Below, one piece after another: positions 2,350 to 51,035 of a DNA stretch of 64,000 bases. Made by a program: the position numbers and the translations under genes. Position 1 is the stretch's first letter. The number at the start of each line of letters is the position of its first letter. The notes beneath the pieces were generated by a model. It worked only from the letters and a program-made list of their open reading frames with translations, had not been told where the DNA came from and did not search any database. The DNA is from a virus, in IMG/VR virus record IMGVR_UViG_3300017987_000001, positions 124,001-188,000 of that record, one strand, 5' to 3'.

Positions 2350-3618
2350 TCAGCTCCAGCCGCCCGAGGCGAGCATGCGCTTGACGAGGTTCTCGCGACC
2401 CTGACGACCGGCGATGCGCGAGGCCATCAGCTCCATCGCGCGATCCCACATGTCACGCTCGCCCCAGTTCCCAAAGCCTGCGTCCTGCGCGAACTGATCA
2501 TATGCCGACTGCTGCTGCTCGGGCGTCATCTCACCCGCACCGCGCGGCGCGAACGGCATCATTCCCATCCATGGGTTGCCGCGATTCATAGCAGCCATGT
2601 AGCCCATGAACTGAGGGTTGTATCCCTGATACAGCGGGTTCCACGACATAGGCATGTAGCCGCCTCGGCCTCCGCCGCCACCTGCGCCGGGGAAGATCTC
2701 TTCGAGGCCGGAGAGAACATCGCGCGCCTCTTCGGGAACCTGCTGCTCGGTAGCATACTGGCGAAGGCGGTGTGCAGCGTACGGTCCGTACTTGCGACCG
2801 ATCGCCTTCTCGATGCTTGTCCACTGCTCAGCGGTGTACTCGTTCTGTGCCAGCTCGCGCAAGCGATCGTCGAACGCCTGCATCCGCTGCTGATACGTCA
2901 TCTTGCCTGTGTCGATTGGCTTAGCAGCAGCTGCGGCAGGAGTAGTGGGAGCGGGTTTCGCTACAGGCGCCGGTGCTGCGCGCGGAGTCGGTCGTGGGGT
3001 CGGCTTTCTCGGAGGAAGCGTAATCCCCTTCTCCTTAGCTATCGACTCGACCTGCGACCGACCGGTGGACGGGCCGGATCGCTGCGGTGGTGCCGGTATC
3101 TGTGCTGGTGGTGCCGGTGTCTGTGCCGGTGGTGCCGGTGTCTGCACCGATGACTGTGCCGGTGTCTGTGCCGGTGTCTGTGCCGGTGCAGCACTTTCTG
3201 CATCAGTTGCAAGTCCGGCCGCAGTTGCCTCTCCGCCCGGCTGTGACTTTGTGGGAGGCACGGGCTTATTAGCGGGTTGAGCTAGCGACTCCCGAAGAAC
3301 GTAGTTAGCGGGACGACGCGCATCGGGCTCTACAACCCGCATATTGCGATTCTGTGCTAGCGTTGCTTCGAACTCTTCCGGTGTCGTTGGCTGGGCAGGC
3401 GCATTGTTGAACGTAAACTCTACAGGCGCATACTTCTTATTGAACGCGGCCTGCGAGCGCGCCGAAGCTGCTCTATTGGCTTCAGCCATTCGTCGTCGAC
3501 GCTCTTCAGCTTCCTGCTGCTGCCGTCGTATATCAGACAACGTATCCGAAATGCCTAGGCCAGCCTTCTTATGTAGGCCAAGTCTGCGTCCGAGTTCGAA
3601 AGCCAACTTCTGATCCAT
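2350..3618 (-). CDS. Hypothetical virion-type protein with Pro/Gln/Thr repeats
   Basis: 422 residues. It starts MDQKLAFELGRRLGLHKKAG, sharing the short N-terminal motif of its neighbours. Residues 20-60 are a charged coiled-coil-like stretch. Residues of about 145-185 carry tandem PAQTPA/PPAQTPA units, which appear as a GT-rich repeat in the DNA at 3087-3190. The C-terminal part is Gly/Met/Trp-rich. The ribosome site TAGGAGCG overlaps the TAG stop of the RNA polymerase beta' fragment just upstream, and the two genes are in the same frame with only three codons between. No known family recognised; a structural or scaffold role is likely from composition and location. Confidence 0.72.
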   Translation of the reverse strand: MDQKLAFELGRRLGLHKKAGLGISDTLSDIRRQQQEAEERRRRMAEANRAASARSQAAFNKKYAPVEFTFNNAPAQPTTPEEFEATLAQNRNMRVVEPDARRPANYVLRESLAQPANKPVPPTKSQPGGEATAAGLATDAESAAPAQTPAQTPAQSSVQTPAPPAQTPAPPAQIPAPPQRSGPSTGRSQVESIAKEKGITLPPRKPTPRPTPRAAPAPVAKPAPTTPAAAAAKPIDTGKMTYQQRMQAFDDRLRELAQNEYTAEQWTSIEKAIGRKYGPYAAHRLRQYATEQQVPEEARDVLSGLEEIFPGAGGGGGRGGYMPMSWNPLYQGYNPQFMGYMAAMNRGNPWMGMMPFAPRGAGEMTPEQQQSAYDQFAQDAGFGNWGERDMWDRAMELMASRIAGRQGRENLVKRMLASGGWS

Positions 3619-3627
3619 TTCGCGCTC

Positions 3628-5490
3628 CTAATACTTCGCCCCGGCCATCCCGTCGGGCTTAATCGGAGGCTTCCCGAACTCGGTCGTCTGCGCCAGCGAC
3701 GGAATGAACGATTCGCTGTGCTGCGCAGCTCCGAGGCCACGGTGCACCGATTGTAGCAGATTCTTTTTCAGATGGAAACCACCAAGTCGTACCATCCAAT
3801 CCTCGTTGTACCCCAGCGTCTCCATGGCGCGCACCATCTCCGGGGCGAACATCGGCTCGTCGGAGTGAGCCTTCACGGTCTTGAGTCCGCGCTTGTTGAT
3901 CTCAGCGGCAATGCGCGGCGTGATCTTCGTACCGATGGAGTACTGGAAGATCGGCTCCTCCAAGTACATGCCCACGGCACTCTTCGGTCGCATGGGCTTC
4001 GTACCCGTGCGCGGCTGATACTCGCGTGTGAGCGTGCTGAACTCTACCACATCATCGGGCAGCATGTCGGTGGTTCCGTCGGAGTCGACAATCCGTGCAT
4101 GGTTGATCAATCCGCGCGTCAGCAGCTCGATGTTCCGACGGTTCGCATCGATCTTGGTGGCCTTCAACGTGTTCCGGAAGTTGTTCATGAAGTGCCAGCG
4201 TCCGGCACCGATGCCCTTGTACTTCACAACCTCGGACGGGTTCGGCAAGCCTTCGCTCAATACGTCACCGGCCTCGATCTTGTCGCCGGGCACGACGGTC
4301 GGGTCGAACTCGGGCGCGACGTAGTGCTTCACGCCGCGCACGATAATGAAGTGACCGCCCTGCGGCGCTTTCTCGATGCCCTCGACAGTACCGTCGGTCT
4401 GCGCGATAGCCGCGCCGCCCATGAACGTACGTGGCACCTGAACGAGCTGGTTGATCGCATCGAAGCCGCCAGCGGTAGGACCAGCACCAACGACACCGCC
4501 GGTATGCTTCGAGGAGATAGCTGACTGCGTAATCGGCTCCGAGATAGCCTGTGCCGCTGCAACACCGACGTTGTCACCGATCTCGGGGAGCTTGCCCTTC
4601 TCGCGCACACCGACGCACCGGGCACACACACCATCGCGTGCCTGACACGTGAGCGGGCTGCGCACGATGATCTCTTTACCGTCACGCCCTATGCGCTTGG
4701 CTGCCTTCGTATCGATGATCGTATTCGCTTTGAAGCCCCCAGCGGGAGCTGCAAGGATCGAGCCAACGTTATCCGGGTCATCAGCGTCGACCGGGATGCC
4801 GTTGACCGTACCGCAATCATCCTCAGTGACGAGCAGCCGGTGAGATGCAAGCGCGAGCTGCTTGCCGAGAAAGCCGCCCTTCGGCGTGGCGAACTTGAGG
4901 TCGACCATGCCCTTTCGTGCCCCGTACGAGCCAGCCCAGTACTCGACTGGGTCCAGCCCCTCAGCGTACGAGTTGAGCAACGGGATCGGAACCGGGTTGC
5001 CTTTGTGGTCGGCCACGAGCAGGTCGCCGATGTTCGTCTGACTGAACTGAATCGGGTTGCCGCGTGCGCCGGAGTTGACCTGCATGGCGAGCGCGTTACG
5101 AAGGTCGAGCTGCTCTTGGAAGTTCAGTTTCCTAAGATCGTCGGCGCGCTTGCCGAGAAGTTTTATGACTCGCTCATTCTTTTGCTCATCGGTGAGCGGG
5201 GAGTTCAGAATCCTATTAACGCCACTACGTAGCTCGTCGCGAATCTTCTGTGCCTTCGGCCCTACAGTTAGAGAATCTAGGCTGATGGACGCCTCGCGGC
5301 CGTAGGTGGTAACCACCTCGGCCCCGAGGTCCATCATCTTCTTCGCGATCTCGTTGTACTGCTCCGGGTAGCGCTTCGCCACTTCGCGCAGGACCGTCTT
5401 GATCGTCTTCTTATTGATGGGACGATCGTAGTCCCGCATATCCGGCGGCAGGATGTCGTTGATCAGCAGTTGACCGACTGTAGTCTTCAC
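3628..5490 (-). CDS. DNA-directed RNA polymerase beta' subunit, C-terminal fragment
   Basis: 620 residues homologous to the C-terminal half of bacterial RpoC. Visible landmarks: the SGARG segment (about 140-144); GLDPVEYWAGSYGARKG (178-194), matching the region leading into the bridge helix; a complete second zinc site C226, C282, C289, C292; and AAAQAISEPITQ (311-322), the trigger-loop-adjacent motif. The catalytic NADFDGD is absent here because it lies at the end of the fusion protein at 11427-16925. The start is GTG at 5490, preceded by GGAGG seven bases upstream. It is embedded in structural-type genes, which favours a virion-packaged polymerase. Ends in TAG. The family assignment is very secure; the packaging idea is inference. 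Confidence 0.95.
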   Translation of the reverse strand: MKTTVGQLLINDILPPDMRDYDRPINKKTIKTVLREVAKRYPEQYNEIAKKMMDLGAEVVTTYGREASISLDSLTVGPKAQKIRDELRSGVNRILNSPLTDEQKNERVIKLLGKRADDLRKLNFQEQLDLRNALAMQVNSGARGNPIQFSQTNIGDLLVADHKGNPVPIPLLNSYAEGLDPVEYWAGSYGARKGMVDLKFATPKGGFLGKQLALASHRLLVTEDDCGTVNGIPVDADDPDNVGSILAAPAGGFKANTIIDTKAAKRIGRDGKEIIVRSPLTCQARDGVCARCVGVREKGKLPEIGDNVGVAAAQAISEPITQSAISSKHTGGVVGAGPTAGGFDAINQLVQVPRTFMGGAAIAQTDGTVEGIEKAPQGGHFIIVRGVKHYVAPEFDPTVVPGDKIEAGDVLSEGLPNPSEVVKYKGIGAGRWHFMNNFRNTLKATKIDANRRNIELLTRGLINHARIVDSDGTTDMLPDDVVEFSTLTREYQPRTGTKPMRPKSAVGMYLEEPIFQYSIGTKITPRIAAEINKRGLKTVKAHSDEPMFAPEMVRAMETLGYNEDWMVRLGGFHLKKNLLQSVHRGLGAAQHSESFIPSLAQTTEFGKPPIKPDGMAGAKY

Positions 5491-11426: not shown

Positions 11427-14400
11427 TCACTTCCCGAACTGCACGGAGTCGCCCACGCGCAGTTCACCCCTCTTGTAAGCGCGCAGGACGTCGGCCTTCG
11501 ACATGAAGGTCTTCACACGCTTGTCCTTGGCCGTCGATGCGAGGTACAGCCCGTGCAGGAACTCCTGCCTTGGGAAGTAGTGCACGTCGAAGTCGGATGC
11601 CGCGAGGAGGTTCCGACTCGGCATCATCTTGTCGACCGCTTCTTCCACCGCCGCCTTGCTCACCGGCACATGGAAATTCATAGCGTCACCGTCGAAGTCG
11701 GCGTTGAATCCCGGCGTCACGATGGGCGGAATCTGCAGCGTGTTGCCCTTGGTGATGATTGGCCACGCCGCCATCATGCCGTAACGGTGAAGCACCGGCG
11801 CGCGGTTGATGATGACCGGCCGACGACCAGTCTCTTCGAGCAGCGCCTTGTACGCCACCTGATCCTGATTCTCGATCGCCTTGGCCGCAGCCATCGCGCC
11901 CATGCCGCGCCGAACGAGGTTGCGCATCACGAACGGACGGTAAAGCACCCACGCCTTGCTCTCGGGGAGGCCGACCTGATCCATGCCAAGACTGGGGTTC
12001 GGCGTGATCACGCCTCGACCAACGGTGTCGACAGCCGCCCCGAGCACCTTCTGCTGATACATGCCCAGCTTCGGGCTCGATCCGAAGATGTGGCGCAGCA
12101 AACCGCCGACCTGCTTCTCCTGCGTCTTCGCAGCGACCGGATCACCGAGACCCGTGACCGCCTTGTATGCCTTGTAGAGCCGCAGGCGCTCGTCACCAAG
12201 CTCGTCGTCGCCGAGATCGTTGCGCAGCTCGCGCAGGTCGTCGTTGACGCTCATGAGATCCGCGTAGAGGTAGTTCGGATCATCCACGAACGTCGTCTTG
12301 TTGAAGGTGGTGATCGGGCGGAAGTTCGGAGGAAGCACCGGAACCTTCGTCAGCATGAGGTCGGACGGCTTCTGTCCCGCCTGCTTCAGCGTGCGCAGGT
12401 AGCCAAGTACCTTCACGGCGTTATCGCGCTTCGCGCCGGTCGCCTCGCGCACCTGCGAGGAGTAGTGCTCGATCGCGTCGTCGACTTTGATACGCTTGAG
12501 CGCGCTCAGGATCGCCTTCGACCCGCGCTCACCGTTCAAGTCGTCGCGTCCGGCAATGATCCGCTCCAGCTTGTTCTGCGTCAGCCCGAGCATGCGGCGA
12601 ATCGGCTCTTCCATCACAGGATTCGGGATAGGCTCAGCGAGGTCGATGTGAGACCAGCGCGTGCCACCATGGCCGCCGGTGAGGCCGACATCGAAGAGGC
12701 CGCCCTTCACCGGCTCCATGGCGTCTCCCGTGACCGTGTCGTTCTTCTTGATCGGTCCGGCGGACATCTTATCGATGTCCTTATCCGTCATGGCAAACAG
12801 ATGCAGCTGCTCGCCCTTCTTCTTGAGGTTGATCCCCGACGCCTGAAGCATGCTCAGGAACTTGTCGTAGATCATCGGAACCTTCGGGCTTGCAGGCGTG
12901 TACCCGAGTCGGAGCGCACGCCAGAAGTCGTCATTGCGCTGCCCGCGCACGAGCTTGGCGTCGCGGATGACATCGGTCGCACCGTGGCTGATGAGCGCCA
13001 TCATCTCGCCGACGCCGATACGCTTCGAGCCTTCTTGGCCGCCACCTGCGGGCATGCCCTCAGCCGTGTACGAGCCGATGTCGCGGCCGGAGAGCTTCGG
13101 CTCGGCCATGTGGTGAAGCTTCATCATGTACGTGTAGCCCGTGAAGACCTTCGGGATCTTCCGACCGCTCACCGGATCATGGATATCCTCGGTGTCGCTC
13201 ATCCCGTGCTTCTGCAGTTCCTTCTTCGCGAGCGTGACATAGCTCTCGTCCATGAAGCCCGGCAGCTTGTAGGGCACGCCGGTCTTCTTCGCGATCTTGC
13301 CCAACGCGGTCTCGATGAGCTGCGCCGGGTTGATACGGCTCACGATGCCGAGCGACGACAGCGTGATGTCGAACGGCTTGCCGTCCTTGTCGTGCGGCAT
13401 CTGATCGTCGGGGATGATCTTCGAGATGACGCCCTTGCCGCCGTAGCGATTGGAGAGCTTGTCGCCGACGTGCATTGGCGAGTACGCCTTCACGATGACC
13501 TTCCAGCCCTCCTTCGTCTTGTCGACATCCGTGACCACGCCTTCCGACTCGTGATCCCACGTCTCGGACGCGTCGCTGTAGAGCGTCTTGCGTGCGCGCA
13601 GCATTCCGCCGCCAGACGGCTTACGCTTGGAGATCGACAGCACCAGCGGATCACCGAACTTCACCTTCGTGCCGATCTTCACGACGCCATTGTCATCGAT
13701 CGTCGACATCTGCTGCTTGTCAAAGGTGCCCGGATAGATCGACATATACGACTTCTTGCCTGCCTCCTGATTGTCAGACTGCTGGTACTTCGTCGTGTAC
13801 ATGTGCTCGCTGGCGAGACGCTTCGCAGCTGACTCACTGAGTACGAGCGCGTCATCGGCGTTGTACCCACGATATGGCAGGTATGCGACCTTCAGGTTCA
13901 TTCCGGAGGCCACTGCCCCTGTGTCGTCGGTGAAGTTGCTTCGAGCGAGCAGCTGACCGGGAGCGACAGGATCTCCAACTCGTACGACAGGAGTGTTGTG
14001 GAGGTAGGTCTTCCGGTTGAAGGGGAAGTTGTTATAGAGATCGTAAGAGACCTTCTCTCCGTCGGCATAGCGCACGACGACCTTATCCTTAGTGATCTCA
14101 GCAACCGACCCCATACCCTCTGCACGAACCGCACCAGCCCGATCACCATAGATCTCCTCGAAGCTGCGTCCCGAACCATCATCGGCGAGGTTCTGAACGA
14201 GCGGAGCCTCGGCATTGCGAAGCGGCAGCGCCTGCGTCGCCATCTTCGCGCCCATGAGCAGACGGCCACCCTTGATCGCACTGACCATGGGGACCATGTT
14301 CGCCGTCGCCGTGAACATGTGGCTCGTGTGCGGCAGCTCGAAGTCGACATCCTTACGCTTCACGTACGCGAGCTTCTTGCCACGGATCATCGCTCGCACT

Positions 14401-16925
14401 TCTTTGCCCTTGCGCGCAAGCTCGCCGGGGAATGCGATGATGCTCTTGGCCATCTTGCTGGCGCTGATGCGGCGCGGCTTGCCGGTCTTCGCGTCGAGCA
14501 TGTCAACGTAGATGTTCCCGTCCGAACCCTTGTACGTCCGGTGCGTGATGCGGCTGTCAACACCAATCTTCATGCCTTCGGGCGCACGAATGGGGTCGAT
14601 CACGCCGAAGTGCGACGGCTGCACGGCACGCGCTTCGTCGGGAACAGCGTCGAGACCGGGCATTCCGCCCTCACCCATGCGGGTGACGCGCACGAGCTGG
14701 TCGAAGATCTCAAGCGGGTTCACCTCTTCGAGCGGAGCTGCGAGACCGCTCTTGAGCAGCACAAGTCGAAGCTGCGGCGAGAGCGCGCCCGCCGGGAACT
14801 TCGAGACGTTGCCCTTGTTGGTAGCACGCCACAGCAGCTTACGGGACATGCCGCCAGCGTCACGGGCGATACGCTCGGCGAAGAGATCCTCGGGGCCGAA
14901 CACGCGCTGAAATGCGAGCGAGTCGCGATCGTCCGTATCCGCCTTGCGCTGGTTGATGTCGATGAGCTTCTTCGTGACTTCGGCGATCACTTCGGGCGAC
15001 AGCTTGTCGATCTTGCGGCCAAGCGTCATCTCGGTCGTGTCGGGGTCAACTTCCATCTTCTCGAAGACACCACGCATCTGAAGACCCATGTCATCATCCG
15101 CGCGCTTCTCCATCGCTGCGTCACGCCCCACGAACTGCACGAACGCGCGCTTGATCTCGTCGACCGGCAGCATGGCCTTCAGCTCTTCGAGCGTGGTGAA
15201 GCGGCGCGGAAGCGTCTTCTCCTTCTTCACGGCTTTGAGCTGCTTCTCGACCTTCGCCTGATCGGCCGCCGGGTTGCCCTTGATGTCCTGATTGGCCTGC
15301 TGCTGACGCTCGATCAGCTGCATCGGCTCTTCGTTCTCCATCATCTCTTCGGCGGGCATCGACATGTCGACAACATCGGCGAGCTTCGTCGCCATCGCGC
15401 TCTTGACGAGCGTGTCGGAGATCGCTTCCTCAATCGCGTTCGTCACGGCAAGGAACGCGTTGGCCGTCTTCTCCTCGACGCCGTCGAACAGCGCTGCGAT
15501 CTTCGAAGCGCCACGCGGCTGCTTCTTGGGCTTCACGGCGACGGTGATGTGGAACTGGAACTCCTTGCCGCTGTCATCGCCGCGCGGAAGCTCCTCGAAT
15601 CCGAGCGACTTGCGATGAGCACGCAGCTCGGGCGACTTCGCTTCGAGGAACCATACGCGATCCATCTCATCCCAGCCCTCGGGGTCGAGATCGACGATGG
15701 CGTTCTGCAAACTGAAGGGGAACTTGCGGCCATTACCGCATGCGGTCTTCCACTTCTTGCCGTACTTCCCGATCAGCTGCTTCGCTTCCCAGTTGCGCAG
15801 AACGCTGATGTGCGGGAGATCGAAGCGCGACTCGCAGTCGACGTCCTGATCCTTCAGCGCCTGATACGCAGCCTCGGGCAGTCCCTTGTGGATCTTGAGG
15901 TACGCCCACGGCTTGTCCGAATCCGAATCGTCGCATACCAGCTCGCCGACGAACTTCGCGCGGCGGCGGTTACCTTCCTCGTCCTCCTGCGCAGCCTTGG
16001 CGAACTTGAACTCGCTGCCCACCCAGAGCATGCACCAGCCGGTCGGCGCGACGAAGCCCTGCACCCGGCGGCACGCGTTGACGCCGTTGAAGTTCTTGCA
16101 GCTGGAGCACTGCTGGAAGAATCCCGACATCGTGTAGTTCACGTCGCCCTTGGAGGTCTTGCCGTAGCCGACGTGCTCCTCGGAGTAGCCAAAGAACGCT
16201 GCCTTCTCGGTAGCGTCGGTGTCCTGCTGCTCGGGAGGGGTCTCCTCGGGCTTCTTCGAAACAAGCTTGTGATACGCGCGCTGAACGGCACGCGGGTCGG
16301 ACGCAGCAACGTTCGCCTGCAGCAGGTCCGGTCCCCACGTCTCGTTGAGCTTGCGGTCGTCGTAACCCATCGAGCGAAGGATCGGATAGAGCTTGAGGTT
16401 CGCCTGCCCGACGTTCATGCGGAAGACGCCGGTCTCCGGCTCCATGTAGACCCTGAAGCTGCGCCCCGTGCCACCCTTGACGTTAAAGTGGGCCTCGATG
16501 ATGCCGTTGTCCTTAACTCGACTGTAGATGCCGGGGCGCAGCCTCATTTGGGACGCTACGGTATACTCGTTGCCGTTGAAGACGAACGTACCACGATCGG
16601 TGAGATACGGAACCTGAGCGATGAGCCGTTGGTTAGTCTTGTCGACAATCTTGCCGGATGCGTTATCGACAAGTTCCCACCGACCAGCGAGCTTCCATCC
16701 GAGCGTCTGGCCGCGCATGATCGCCCGCTTCTGCTCGGAGTTGGTGTACTGCTTCGGCTTCACGTACTTCACGTCGTTCAGCCGCAGCGTGTAGCGCTGG
16801 TTCGTCATCGGGAAGCGCTCTTCGATCGCCTTCTGCACGTTCGTGAACAGAAGCTGGCGCGTCGAGCGCACGTCGTCGAACTCACGCATCGTAGGTTCGT
16901 TGGGAGCAGCGATTACGTCGGCCAT
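11427..16925 (-). CDS. RNA polymerase beta subunit fused to the N-terminal half of beta', with inserted HiPIP-like and 2H-like domains
   Basis: 1832 residues. Beta occupies about 1-1365: VPYLTDRGTFVFNGNEYTVA (N-terminal beta); VQPSHFGVIDPIRAPEGMKIG (fork/Rif region); YLPYRGYNADDALVLSESA; and GDKLSNRYGGKGVISKI (about 1155-1170), all standard beta landmarks. Beta' begins near 1370 with GLFD and THWSHIDLAEP-like sequence and includes VPVLPPNFRPI, INRAPVLHRYG and the catalytic NADFDGD at 1741-1747 (D1743, D1745, D1747). The protein ends about 85 residues later, and the remainder of beta' is encoded at 3628-5490. Between the beta N-terminus and fork region are a four-cysteine motif (C273, C276, C285, C298) and two H-x-S/T motifs (H372-I-S, H459-I-T). 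A natural beta-beta' fusion occurs in some bacteria; here it is combined with a split beta'. Start and stop overlap neighbours. Confidence 0.95.
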   Translation of the reverse strand: MADVIAAPNEPTMREFDDVRSTRQLLFTNVQKAIEERFPMTNQRYTLRLNDVKYVKPKQYTNSEQKRAIMRGQTLGWKLAGRWELVDNASGKIVDKTNQRLIAQVPYLTDRGTFVFNGNEYTVASQMRLRPGIYSRVKDNGIIEAHFNVKGGTGRSFRVYMEPETGVFRMNVGQANLKLYPILRSMGYDDRKLNETWGPDLLQANVAASDPRAVQRAYHKLVSKKPEETPPEQQDTDATEKAAFFGYSEEHVGYGKTSKGDVNYTMSGFFQQCSSCKNFNGVNACRRVQGFVAPTGWCMLWVGSEFKFAKAAQEDEEGNRRRAKFVGELVCDDSDSDKPWAYLKIHKGLPEAAYQALKDQDVDCESRFDLPHISVLRNWEAKQLIGKYGKKWKTACGNGRKFPFSLQNAIVDLDPEGWDEMDRVWFLEAKSPELRAHRKSLGFEELPRGDDSGKEFQFHITVAVKPKKQPRGASKIAALFDGVEEKTANAFLAVTNAIEEAISDTLVKSAMATKLADVVDMSMPAEEMMENEEPMQLIERQQQANQDIKGNPAADQAKVEKQLKAVKKEKTLPRRFTTLEELKAMLPVDEIKRAFVQFVGRDAAMEKRADDDMGLQMRGVFEKMEVDPDTTEMTLGRKIDKLSPEVIAEVTKKLIDINQRKADTDDRDSLAFQRVFGPEDLFAERIARDAGGMSRKLLWRATNKGNVSKFPAGALSPQLRLVLLKSGLAAPLEEVNPLEIFDQLVRVTRMGEGGMPGLDAVPDEARAVQPSHFGVIDPIRAPEGMKIGVDSRITHRTYKGSDGNIYVDMLDAKTGKPRRISASKMAKSIIAFPGELARKGKEVRAMIRGKKLAYVKRKDVDFELPHTSHMFTATANMVPMVSAIKGGRLLMGAKMATQALPLRNAEAPLVQNLADDGSGRSFEEIYGDRAGAVRAEGMGSVAEITKDKVVVRYADGEKVSYDLYNNFPFNRKTYLHNTPVVRVGDPVAPGQLLARSNFTDDTGAVASGMNLKVAYLPYRGYNADDALVLSESAAKRLASEHMYTTKYQQSDNQEAGKKSYMSIYPGTFDKQQMSTIDDNGVVKIGTKVKFGDPLVLSISKRKPSGGGMLRARKTLYSDASETWDHESEGVVTDVDKTKEGWKVIVKAYSPMHVGDKLSNRYGGKGVISKIIPDDQMPHDKDGKPFDITLSSLGIVSRINPAQLIETALGKIAKKTGVPYKLPGFMDESYVTLAKKELQKHGMSDTEDIHDPVSGRKIPKVFTGYTYMMKLHHMAEPKLSGRDIGSYTAEGMPAGGGQEGSKRIGVGEMMALISHGATDVIRDAKLVRGQRNDDFWRALRLGYTPASPKVPMIYDKFLSMLQASGINLKKKGEQLHLFAMTDKDIDKMSAGPIKKNDTVTGDAMEPVKGGLFDVGLTGGHGGTRWSHIDLAEPIPNPVMEEPIRRMLGLTQNKLERIIAGRDDLNGERGSKAILSALKRIKVDDAIEHYSSQVREATGAKRDNAVKVLGYLRTLKQAGQKPSDLMLTKVPVLPPNFRPITTFNKTTFVDDPNYLYADLMSVNDDLRELRNDLGDDELGDERLRLYKAYKAVTGLGDPVAAKTQEKQVGGLLRHIFGSSPKLGMYQQKVLGAAVDTVGRGVITPNPSLGMDQVGLPESKAWVLYRPFVMRNLVRRGMGAMAAAKAIENQDQVAYKALLEETGRRPVIINRAPVLHRYGMMAAWPIITKGNTLQIPPIVTPGFNADFDGDAMNFHVPVSKAAVEEAVDKMMPSRNLLAASDFDVHYFPRQEFLHGLYLASTAKDKRVKTFMSKADVLRAYKRGELRVGDSVQFGK

Positions 16926-46184: not shown

Positions 46185-46806
46185 TGAGTTCTCCCATCTC
46201 TATCAGTCGTGCGCGCCCGCGAGCGACGATAGTCGGCTCCGGCGGCTGCACGGTCAGCGTAATCATCTCTGGTGCCGTCGTTGGATGCGGCAATCGCTTC
46301 AGGAATTCTTCACGTTCGAGATCTTCAGCCTCTCCCGGCTTGAAGATCGGATACGGCAGCATCTCCCGGTGTGTCTCTGCGACGAGCCGGGCAGACATGG
46401 TTGAGATGGTCCACACATCGATAACCTCGGGCCGAGGGTTCTCGACACCGACCATCCGCATAAACGGATCGCCGATCGGTGCCGCCATACGGCGCGGCAC
46501 ACAGAAGCCGCCATGCTTCGGGTGAACCATCTCAACCGACTCCAGCCAGCTACAGAATGCCGGATATGCCTGATCGTTCATGACATACAGACGAGACCCG
46601 AACGGCTGCGGCAGGTTGATGATCTCGAATCCCTGAAAGTCGTAGTACGTCAGCGTCACGTCCATCTTCGTGTCATTGACGAAGCGGCCAACGACGTCGA
46701 ACGTGATGCCGCCGTAGGTGTAGAGGGCCGCGTGCGTGAACGGCACGAAGCCCTCCTTCCGAGCCTCCAGCAACGAGCCGAGCAGTTCGAGCTTGTCTGT
46801 ACTCAC
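46156..46806 (-). CDS. Hypothetical 216-residue protein
   Basis: GTG start at 46806 sharing its G with the upstream TAG (TAGTG). The sequence is soluble, mixed alpha/beta, with several Pro-rich turns (VHPKHGGFCVPRRMAAPIGD). No recognised motif. Transcribed with the glutaredoxin-like gene immediately upstream. Confidence 0.62.
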   Translation of the reverse strand: MSTDKLELLGSLLEARKEGFVPFTHAALYTYGGITFDVVGRFVNDTKMDVTLTYYDFQGFEIINLPQPFGSRLYVMNDQAYPAFCSWLESVEMVHPKHGGFCVPRRMAAPIGDPFMRMVGVENPRPEVIDVWTISTMSARLVAETHREMLPYPIFKPGEAEDLEREEFLKRLPHPTTAPEMITLTVQPPEPTIVARGRARLIEMGELNESGDQAAQ

Positions 46807-47072
46807 TAGTGATTCTTTCTAGCTGCCTTTATCACCCTCATTGCAGCAGTGTAGCTGTACGGCTTTCCGTCAACGACCAGCATGGGGATCTGCTGGTTTA
46901 TCAAGCAGTGCATCGCCATGACATCAATACTGCGGTCCGTCCGCCACCCCTCGTGCGGCATACCGTAGTACTCGATGTCGTGCTTCTCGTACTCCAGCTT
47001 CATGCGCTTGAGCTTATCCTCAGCCGACGCACAAAGACCACAGTTCTTCTTTCCGTACAGGACGATCTGCAT
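46806..47072 (-). CDS. Glutaredoxin-like protein
   Basis: 88 residues, thioredoxin fold. YGKKNCGLCASAEDKLKRM gives the redox C-x2-C (C11, C14) at the start of helix 1, and NQQIPMLVVDGKPY holds the cis-proline loop. Size and order fit phage glutaredoxins, which commonly reduce ribonucleotide reductase or host proteins. No reductase gene is in the window. AAGGGGAA precedes the ATG, downstream of a large palindrome. Confidence 0.88.
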   Translation of the reverse strand: MQIVLYGKKNCGLCASAEDKLKRMKLEYEKHDIEYYGMPHEGWRTDRSIDVMAMHCLINQQIPMLVVDGKPYSYTAAMRVIKAARKNH

Positions 47073-48258: not shown

Positions 48259-48927
48259 TTACGACTGATTCTGAACGTCCCCGTCGTCGTCATCCGCGCT
48301 CGACCCGGCCGTCCAGTCGATGGACTGCGCACTCGCGCCGCCACGGTATGCGCCGACATTGCTCGACATGCACTTCACGGCATGCGCGTAGTGATGCGCG
48401 TTGCCAGCACGGTACTTGACGATCCGGTCCATCGCGATACCCATGCCGCGCGCCTCGTCGAACGCTTCAGCACCCGCAGCGAGGAAGACGAACTGCCACT
48501 GGAACTGATTCGTCTGCGTGTCGATCATCTTCATGAGCTGATCGCGCTTGTACTCGTGACTGGAGTTCTCCTGCCCGTCGGTGATGATCGCCATCACAAC
48601 CTTGCTCGGGCGTTCCTCTTCGGGCTTCTCAGCCAGCCGCTTCCCGACCTCGTCGATCGTGCGTCCGACCGCATCCAGCAACGCCGTCATGCCGCCGGGC
48701 GTGTACGTGCTGGTGCTGAGACGCGGAACTTCCTTGATGGGCGCGCACTTGTGAACGATATCATACGCGGTATCGAACAGCGTCAACGTGAGCTGTGCCT
48801 CTCCGGGCAGCTTCTTCTGCTCGTCGAGGAACGTGTTGAACGCACCCATCGCATCGTCGCGAATCGTGGCCATCGATCCGGACTTGTCCATCACTACGAT
48901 GATCTCCGTCAGATTTGGCTTCGTCAC
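48259..48927 (-). CDS. VWA-domain protein with complete MIDAS
   Basis: 222 residues from the GTG at 48927 (GAGGAG six bases upstream). EIIVVMDKSGSMATIRDDAM gives D-x-S-x-S; TPGGMTALLDAVGRTI supplies the MIDAS Thr; AIITDGQENSSHEYK supplies the Asp. A whole von Willebrand factor A domain with intact metal site, with an acidic C-terminal tail (SSADDDDGD). VWA proteins bind partners through Mg2+ and often work with MoxR-type AAA ATPases, none of which is seen nearby. Confidence 0.9.
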   Translation of the reverse strand: MTKPNLTEIIVVMDKSGSMATIRDDAMGAFNTFLDEQKKLPGEAQLTLTLFDTAYDIVHKCAPIKEVPRLSTSTYTPGGMTALLDAVGRTIDEVGKRLAEKPEEERPSKVVMAIITDGQENSSHEYKRDQLMKMIDTQTNQFQWQFVFLAAGAEAFDEARGMGIAMDRIVKYRAGNAHHYAHAVKCMSSNVGAYRGGASAQSIDWTAGSSADDDDGDVQNQS

Positions 48928-48928
48928 G

Positions 48929-49123
48929 TCACTCTCCTCTTGCCTCAGCCTGTATGTCACGAAGCTGCTCTTCGAGGCGATGAATAGCTTCGTCTGGGGT
49001 CACCCCCATTGCAGAATGGAAGCCCCAGTGCGCCTTCCACGCGCGGGCCTCGTACACGAACGTCAGCGACACGTTGTCGCGAAGCTTGTCCGCCAACATC
49101 TCGATAGCTATCACGACATTCAT
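48929..49123 (-). CDS. Hypothetical 64-residue protein
   Basis: Starts MNVVIAIEMLADKLRDNVSL at 49123, just after the tRNA. Helical N- and C-terminal parts around a short aromatic middle (ARAWKAHWGFH). Its stop overlaps the ribosome site of the VWA gene. No family recognised. Confidence 0.62.
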   Translation of the reverse strand: MNVVIAIEMLADKLRDNVSLTFVYEARAWKAHWGFHSAMGVTPDEAIHRLEEQLRDIQAEARGE

Positions 49124-49135
49124 GATTCTCTCCTT

Positions 49136-49210
49136 TGGAACGTCCGGCGGGGGTCGAACCCGCATCTTGCGCCTTTAGAGAGCGCCGCACTCCCATTGTG
49201 CTACGGACGT
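49136..49210 (-). tRNA. tRNA with anticodon CUA (amber suppressor), CCA encoded
   Basis: Folds as a canonical cloverleaf: 7-bp acceptor ACGTCCG/CGGACGT, D-stem GCAC/GTGC, anticodon stem GCGCT/GGCGC, loop CTCTAAA with U33 and anticodon CTA, 5-base variable loop AAGAT, T-stem GCGGG/CCCGC with loop TTCGACC, discriminator T73, then CCA at 49138-49136. Decodes UAG. The short variable loop excludes class II identities. U73 and the A1-U72 pair do not point clearly to one synthetase, so the amino acid is unknown. Lies between two small genes. Confidence 0.9.
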
Positions 49211-49377
49211 TCCTCTTGTTTCTCCTCCATCGCGTCGCGCTTGAGCTTCGCGCCCAGCACAAACGAGCAGGACACGGATCCGAAGACCCCGAGCATGCGC
49301 GCGTAGATGTTGCCGGACAGTATTGCTGCGGTCGCACCCATTAGAATCATCGCAAGCAGCCAGCTCCTGCTATTCAT
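49201..49377 (-). CDS. Small two-span membrane protein overlapping the tRNA 5' end
   Basis: 58 residues from the ATG at 49377, which overlaps the stop of the upstream gene. Starts MNSRSWLLAMILMGATAAIL; hydrophobic segments at 5-24 and about 29-43, then a charged tail. The stop codon TAG is bases 8-10 of the suppressor tRNA gene. Ribosome site weak, so translation is probably coupled to the upstream gene. Confidence 0.58.
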   Translation of the reverse strand: MNSRSWLLAMILMGATAAILSGNIYARMLGVFGSVSCSFVLGAKLKRDAMEEKQEERP

Positions 49378-50446
49378 CATCCAGTACCAGCATCTTGTTG
49401 AGCTGCGTGACCGGGTAGATGTTGCTGTCGATCTGAACGTTCATTGTCCCGCCCGCAAGTTGCGAGGGCTTGAAGTCTGCCCATACGTGCGGCCTATCAG
49501 TCAGGTACGGAGGGTACAGCTCCTCCGGACGCATGCCTTGTGGCTGGTCGTGCTCCGTGTTGATCCCGACTACGGTAGCAATCGGATAGTGGAACTGCAG
49601 CTGCTGCAGCGTGGCCAGCGATCGCACGAGCCGCGCAGGGCGTGGTTCGATCGTCTGCTCCTCGGCGATGAGCTGATCGAGATCTTCAATCACGAGCAGG
49701 CCAGATGGATTGAACTGGTCGGTAACTGAAGAGCGAAGTACCTCAACCAGCTGTCCGACCGTATCACCTTTGCCCCGCCAACCGCTCAGCGCAATCACCT
49801 TGCTCGCATGCACGTCTTCCTCGCCCGCCTTGCCCGTGATGGGGTGTCGGTCGTCTTCGCCAGCATGAAGCACGACGACACGCCCGCCCGCGCGCTCGTA
49901 TACCTTCGTGAAGAGCGCGAGGATAATGGGGAGTGCGGTCGAATGTGAGAAGATGGGGAAGATGTCCTCGTGCGTCATCCCGTTCTCGAACTTCCGATCG
50001 AGATCGAGCGGCAGCGGGACGGCCTTGCTCTTGATGCGCCCCGTGAGCTTCTTCATCCGGGCCTTACGCCCCTCGTCGCGCTCCAAAGCGATCTGAGCCT
50101 GCGCGTTGAGCCATGGCTGGAGCTTCTGGTTGAACTCGGCCAGCATGGGCGGGAAGTCGAACATCTTACCCGCCGCGTGCTGCTGTGCCTCGTACAGAAT
50201 GCCGACCATCATGGCCGATACGTCAGGCATCTCCGACGCGCGCATCGACGCCCAGTTGACGAGCCTATGTCCGAAGAGGGCTAACGCGGCCAGACGGCGG
50301 AGATCCGCGCTTTCCTCCATTGCCTTTTCGAGACGCTCTCCCGCCTCGTCGTGGAGCTTCATCCGCCGCTCCGCTTCCTTCTGCTGCTGCTCCTTCATCG
50401 CTGCCTGCAGCTTCGCGATGTCCACGTTCTGTGGAATCTGGGGCAT
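49370..50446 (-). CDS. Putative P-loop/RecA-fold ATPase-like protein
   Basis: 358 residues from the ATG at 50446; if translation starts further downstream, the overlap with the upstream nuclease-like gene disappears. N-terminal 100 residues form a Gln/Glu-rich helix. The C-terminal half has RVVVLHAGEDDRHP, SGLLVIEDLDQLIAEEQ (Walker B-like) and YPIATVVGINTEHD, giving the strand order of RecA-fold ATPases, but no convincing Walker A. Could be a divergent AAA+/RecA protein or a non-enzymatic relative. Low family confidence. Confidence 0.5.
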   Translation of the reverse strand: MPQIPQNVDIAKLQAAMKEQQQKEAERRMKLHDEAGERLEKAMEESADLRRLAALALFGHRLVNWASMRASEMPDVSAMMVGILYEAQQHAAGKMFDFPPMLAEFNQKLQPWLNAQAQIALERDEGRKARMKKLTGRIKSKAVPLPLDLDRKFENGMTHEDIFPIFSHSTALPIILALFTKVYERAGGRVVVLHAGEDDRHPITGKAGEEDVHASKVIALSGWRGKGDTVGQLVEVLRSSVTDQFNPSGLLVIEDLDQLIAEEQTIEPRPARLVRSLATLQQLQFHYPIATVVGINTEHDQPQGMRPEELYPPYLTDRPHVWADFKPSQLAGGTMNVQIDSNIYPVTQLNKMLVLDDE

Positions 50447-51035
50447 AAAACGCCTCCAATACTCTAGGGTCGACGGTGTCGAGGAACTGGTCGAACCTGA
50501 ACCCGACAACCGAATGCTCCGGCAAATGAATCTTGTGCTTCTTCACCTCAACGACGCGCTCGTCGATGCGGAAGATCATGCTGGGGGATGGGCGGTAGCC
50601 GAACATGGTGAACTCGGCCAGTGTAGCCGTAGTGACCCAGCCAAGCAATAGTCCGCGATTGCGCTTTGTCACGAGAAATGGCCGCCTCGGGACGGCCATC
50701 GCTTCGTCGTAGCATTGCGCCCAAAACTTCATCCAGTCATGATTCGGGTCGACGTTCTGGAGTACGCCAAGCACGTCGTATGTCTTGTACGACTTGAATT
50801 CGAAGCAGAACGCATCCAGCAGCGGCTTGCCAAGCGGGTCGGTATACTTCATGTCACCAAACTCGTTGGCCGTGGACTTCCCGCTCCGTCTGCGTCGGGA
50901 TGTTGCGCGTGAGCCGGACCCGGACGTCCTCCAGTAGATATCGTCACGTTTGCCCTCAGTCCACCACAGGCTCATCTGTACGCAGCGGTCGCGTTCGAAT
51001 TGTCCACCTTTCGCCGCACCGCCGCCGGGTCTCAT
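50265..51035 (-). CDS. Nuclease-like protein (PD-(D/E)XK type)
   Basis: 256 residues from the ATG at 51035; an ATG at 51080 would overlap the upstream gene by 41 bases. GDMKYTDPLGKPLLDAFCFE followed by FKSYKTYDVLGVL holds the acidic residues and the E-x-K of the PD-(D/E)XK nuclease fold. The C-terminal 60 codons overlap the start of the next gene by up to 182 bases and have a run-on composition (Gly/Glu/Arg-rich). Candidate role in recombination or resolution. Active-site assignment is by eye. Confidence 0.6.
   Translation of the reverse strand: MRPGGGAAKGGQFERDRCVQMSLWWTEGKRDDIYWRTSGSGSRATSRRRRSGKSTANEFGDMKYTDPLGKPLLDAFCFEFKSYKTYDVLGVLQNVDPNHDWMKFWAQCYDEAMAVPRRPFLVTKRNRGLLLGWVTTATLAEFTMFGYRPSPSMIFRIDERVVEVKKHKIHLPEHSVVGFRFDQFLDTVDPRVLEAFYAPDSTERGHREAAGSDEGAAAEGSGAADEAPRRGGRASRKGNGGKRGSPPSGRVSPLRT

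Follow-up and report, generated by a model that had tools for sequence, protein, structure and literature searches.

In E. coli, the suppressor su7 (supU) is a tRNA-Trp in which C35 has been changed to U, and it is charged mainly with glutamine. When suppressor tRNAs are found in phages, the discussion usually treats them as instruments of stop-codon recoding. Xanthomonas phage XacN1 encodes CUA tRNAs for which in silico readthrough gave no target genes, and only 18 amber stops are listed for it (PMC5852040). Ralstonia phage RsoM2USA likewise encodes a CUA tRNA, and its authors call UAG abundant (PMC8504454), while Atu_ph07 carries a UCA suppressor alongside abundant UGA (PMC6102473). Here, we describe a CUA tRNA gene in a jumbo phage whose genes often end in UAG. 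This combination is real and not new, with XacN1 and RsoM2USA as precedents, and the role of such tRNAs in phages that are not recoded is a testable question.

The stretch of DNA analyzed, which we refer to as the window, is 64,000 nucleotides long and corresponds to positions 124001-188000 of a 207,857 bp IMG/VR virus record. As the first 100 bases of the record reappear about 123 bases before its end, it probably represents a complete genome whose assembly ends overlap. The record contains genes for terminase, tail sheath, baseplate, tail spike and a multisubunit RNA polymerase, and we thus assign it to a myovirus-like jumbo phage. No close DNA relatives were found in phage records when 24 kb of the window was compared, and viral contigs yielded neither relatives via the genes adjoining the suppressor tRNA nor an exact match to the tRNA core. 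The window also encodes an 1832-aa RNA-polymerase-like protein (11427-16925, minus strand) that is matched by several PHROG beta-subunit families. Relatives of this protein, at 47-49% identity, occur in two IMG/VR contigs only, and it could represent a subunit fusion in an uncommon lineage of phages. ARAGORN finds 38 tRNAs in the record, 37 of which are grouped in a single cluster that spans the ends of the record (195.3 kb to 2.2 kb), serves nearly all amino acids and includes an ordinary tRNA-Trp (CCA). Within this cluster lies a nicotinate phosphoribosyltransferase gene (L012:13656-14894, minus strand), which suggests NAD salvage. The suppressor tRNA is solitary, about 22 kb from the cluster.

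This tRNA is encoded on the minus strand at 49136..49210 and is the only one that ARAGORN finds in the window, with the anticodon CTA. Rfam model RF00005 matches positions 49139-49210 over its full length with 63 bits (gathering score 29, E 2.7e-11). Divided by arms and loops, the sequence is ACGTCCG TA GCAC AATGGGA GTGC G GCGCT CTCTAAA GGCGC AAGAT GCGGG TTCGACC CCCGC CGGACGT T CCA. All positions of the stems are paired (acceptor 7 bp, D 4 bp, anticodon 5 bp and T 5 bp), the last pair of the anticodon stem being a U31-G39 wobble. The cloverleaf is the minimum-energy fold, with a z-score that is by itself modest (-1.3). The anticodon loop CTCTAAA (standard positions 32-38) occupies 49174..49180, with the anticodon at 49176-49178; the D loop contains GG, and the T loop is TTCGACC. 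At the 3' end, we observe an A1-U72 pair, the discriminator U73 and an encoded CCA. The preliminary description of this DNA, made from the letters alone, had proposed a cloverleaf with this loop, anticodon and 3' end, with no strand named; ARAGORN, the Rfam tRNA model and the predicted fold agree with it, and the claimed terminal bases are present in the sequence.

Tightly packed minus-strand genes flank the tRNA on both sides. Its 3' end runs directly into the next coding sequence, a small gene at 48929..49123 whose Shine-Dalgarno sequence AAGGAGA starts right after the CCA. This gene is followed by a VWA-like gene (48259..48927; PHROG 7371, E 1.5e-55) with VVMDKSGSM near its start, where a MIDAS-like DxSxS motif can be read from the sequence. 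In theta-ribozyme-flanked suppressor tRNAs, an HDV-like ribozyme begins at the 3' end of the tRNA; here, at Rfam's threshold, only the tRNA and no flanking ribozyme was found. Immediately upstream is a 59-aa hydrophobic ORF (49201..49380, minus strand), the start of which overlaps the end of a TAG-ended gene (49370..50446, minus strand) that probably shares a transcription unit with the tRNA. Neither PHROG nor Pfam gives a match for the longer ORF at this place (49370-50509). The UAG stop of the 59-aa ORF (49201-49203) coincides with nucleotides 8-10 of the tRNA. Self-regulation through this codon was considered and rejected, as the arrangement is not enriched among suppressors (5 of 108, versus 27 of 586 other tRNAs). 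In this phage, 7 of 36 other tRNAs also have an upstream ORF of at least 40 codons that stops at the UAG of tRNA positions 8-10. Elsewhere in the window, a small minus-strand gene at 46806-47072 encodes a CxxC motif (KKNCGLCASAE) and appears glutaredoxin-like when read by eye.

The origin of the suppressor was examined by removing the anticodon loop and comparing the remainder with about 640 phage tRNAs, taking the mean of the top three scores for each isotype. Other phage CTA tRNAs score highest (23.7), followed by Trp (22.0) and then Arg (16.7), where the likeness to other suppressors is in part a product of selection, these having been collected via a Trp-like loop. The loop CTCTAAA is one base off CTCCAAA, the loop of phage tRNA-Trp genes, and when the loop is kept, most of the longest blastn matches in the phage collection carry a tRNA-Trp annotation. 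With the loop masked, blastn returned T-arm matches and no full-length match in that collection, and the phage's own tRNA-Trp (CCA) is no close relative. Within the weak phylogenetic resolution of 75 nucleotides, the sequence points to a likely derivation from a phage tRNA-Trp by C35 to U (CCA to CUA). The identity, previously described as unclear, is narrowed by the isotype scores as far as a tRNA-Trp-like body. Because bacterial tRNA-Trp and E. coli tRNA-Gln both have G73 where this tRNA has U73, the host Trp or Gln synthetase may charge it poorly, though U73 is also found in the tRNA-Gln(UUG) that the phage itself encodes. Searches of the record for RF-1, GlnRS/GluRS-type and Trp/TyrRS-type (class Ib/Ic) domains found none, so that charging would have to depend on host enzymes or on some kind of synthetase beyond those searched.

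We next consider the use of UAG in the genome itself. A caller that uses codon scores plus start signals identifies 245 genes in the record (92% coding), which end in TAG (96), TGA (87) or TAA (62), making TAG the commonest stop (39%). TAG terminates core genes, including those for the terminase large subunit (606 aa), the tail sheath (971 aa) and the tail spike (1378 aa). Long genes are unbroken under table 11, and ORF coverage drops slightly, from 88.2% to 86.8%, when TAG is read as sense. When TAG-ended genes are set beside their homologues in the related contigs G002 (224 kb) and G001 (33 kb), the two ends are at most a few to about 25 residues apart; the single exception is a polymerase gene in G002. 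That contig has three tRNAs and no CUA tRNA, and TAG ends 37% of its called genes; as this usage is similar, heavy use of UAG is independent of the suppressor. UAG is therefore a genuine stop in this record, which uses the standard code, and genome-wide recoding is rejected. The earlier count of more than 20 TAG-ended genes proves correct and understated, and its view that the tRNA is present without recoding of the whole genome is upheld by the intact genes, the falling coverage and the matching ends.

Taken together, we consider this tRNA to be probably a functional amber suppressor of a standard-code jumbo phage, probably descended from a tRNA-Trp, charged by the host and giving partial readthrough of UAG. 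What we show is the gene with its fold and anticodon, the standard code and core genes that stop at UAG; that the tRNA is expressed and charged, which amino acid it carries, and that it suppresses in part and helps the phage are inferred. The tRNA would probably be transcribed within a minus-strand operon and trimmed by host tRNA-processing enzymes, with the CCA already encoded. A host synthetase would then charge it, attaching glutamine and/or tryptophan if E. coli su7 is a guide, and the charged tRNA would compete with host RF1 at UAG to produce partial readthrough. Since the phage's own UAG codons stay true stops, such suppression has to be weak or late, or else tolerated.

The alternative that survives best is that the gene is a passenger, a mobile or leftover product of tRNA exchange between phages that is transcribed and has little present function. 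Its isolation from the tRNA cluster, the lack of a suppressor in G002 and the spread of similar tRNAs across many IMG/VR phages are what one would expect of such a gene. Against this, every stem is intact, as are the positions usually conserved in tRNAs, and useless genes tend to be lost from phage genomes. On balance, we regard a passenger as unlikely, though deserving of some weight.

More doubtful is programmed readthrough, in which the tRNA would serve to lengthen one phage protein, or a few, beyond a UAG. The weak candidate that emerges from the sequences is an RNA-polymerase beta'-like gene (3628-5490, minus strand), which ends in TAG and is followed after three codons by an in-frame, Pro/Ala-rich ORF of 422 aa, the two together spanning 2350-5490 of the window. 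In G002, the reading frame of the homologue stays open for about 300 further residues that are also Pro/Ala-rich. However, the 422-aa ORF has its own Shine-Dalgarno sequence and ATG, the G001 homologue ends in TAA at nearly the same position, and the likeness of the ORF to the G002 extension is of low complexity only. More broadly, 14 TAG junctions open in frame into the next gene, but this rate (14 of 62) is not in excess of that after TGA or TAA (11 of 65; Fisher p 0.5).

Other searches of the record gave a similar picture. None of the 31 TAG-ended genes with at least 10 free codons has a coding-like extension, as is also the case for TGA and TAA. Backup stops are not enriched after TAG (15% versus 14-20%), and extensions past TAG have no convincing match in relatives. 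No genuine gene has its homology broken by an in-frame TAG, the stop-containing matches being antisense or marginal. An SbcC-like gene that seemed to be split by TAG (record 5851-2954) was set aside as two genes, because the Walker A motif already lies within the 700-aa part. In silico readthrough thus found no target gene for the tRNA, in tests that are blind to low-level, unselected readthrough. The preliminary description had also suggested that the tRNA may work on particular codons, on mRNAs of the host or during a single stage of infection, and this gains no support from the record, in which we find no coding-like or homologous extension, no surplus of in-frame pairs and no code-switch protein of the tested families. 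We give little credence to a timed variant in which the tRNA would act as a partial readthrough factor, adding C-terminal tails to selected phage proteins (such as the RNA-polymerase beta'-like subunit) or to host proteins with the code unchanged.

With no phage target found in these searches, host targets remain by elimination. The tRNA might then cause readthrough of host UAG stops and so disturb host proteins, or it might suppress host amber alleles. However, the phage's own commonest stop would be hit at least as hard, and we consider an action directed at the host to be improbable. Finally, recoding of UAG to an amino acid as in genetic code 15, whether genome-wide or at one stage, is favored by the suppressor's presence alone and can for practical purposes be dismissed, given TAG as the leading stop even in sheath, terminase and spike genes, no rise in coverage with TAG as sense and no genuine homology interrupted by TAG.

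We asked how often CUA tRNAs occur in IMG/VR by a pattern scan with the suppressor's loop plus T arm; a few of the loci examined came from phage records. Among the matches listed, ARAGORN confirmed at least 113 CUA tRNAs in at least 104 loci. Of the listed loci with a CUA tRNA that are at least 8 kb long (56), 53 show a coding coverage that rises no further when TAG is read as sense than when control codons are, and two show a clear gain. These figures are a rough indication, as they cover the matches listed only, come from loci picked through a Trp-like loop and are noisy where the stretches are short. As neither this phage nor most of the sampled IMG/VR loci listed show a sign of recoding, the presence of a CUA tRNA is by itself no evidence for an alternative code.

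When compared to known systems, the suppressor shares its CUA anticodon with pyrrolysine tRNA, and 'tRNA-Pyl' is merely the label that ARAGORN prints for a CTA anticodon. The hallmarks of pyrrolysine tRNA are a 6-bp anticodon stem, one base between the acceptor and D stems and a 3-nt variable loop, whereas here we observe a 5-bp anticodon stem, two bases (U8 and A9) and a 5-nt variable loop. This ordinary tRNA architecture speaks against a pyrrolysine identity. The likeness to E. coli su7 consists of the A1-U72 pair, a probably tRNA-Trp-like body and a CUA anticodon that would stem from the same single-base change. Of the su7-like acceptor end (A1-U72 plus G73), only the pair is present, as U73 stands here in place of G73, and the gene is borne by a phage. 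A phage-encoded CUA tRNA is also a feature of code-15 recoded phages, including crAss-like, Lak and others (PMC11210395, PMC10879173), although in our record TAG is not recoded, no release factor gene was found and no ribozyme beside the tRNA rose to Rfam's threshold. On the basis of published descriptions, the system most resembles XacN1 and RsoM2USA, which are likewise jumbo phages with a CUA tRNA in addition to a large ordinary tRNA set; it differs from XacN1, with its 18 amber stops, in that UAG is the commonest stop of the called genes.
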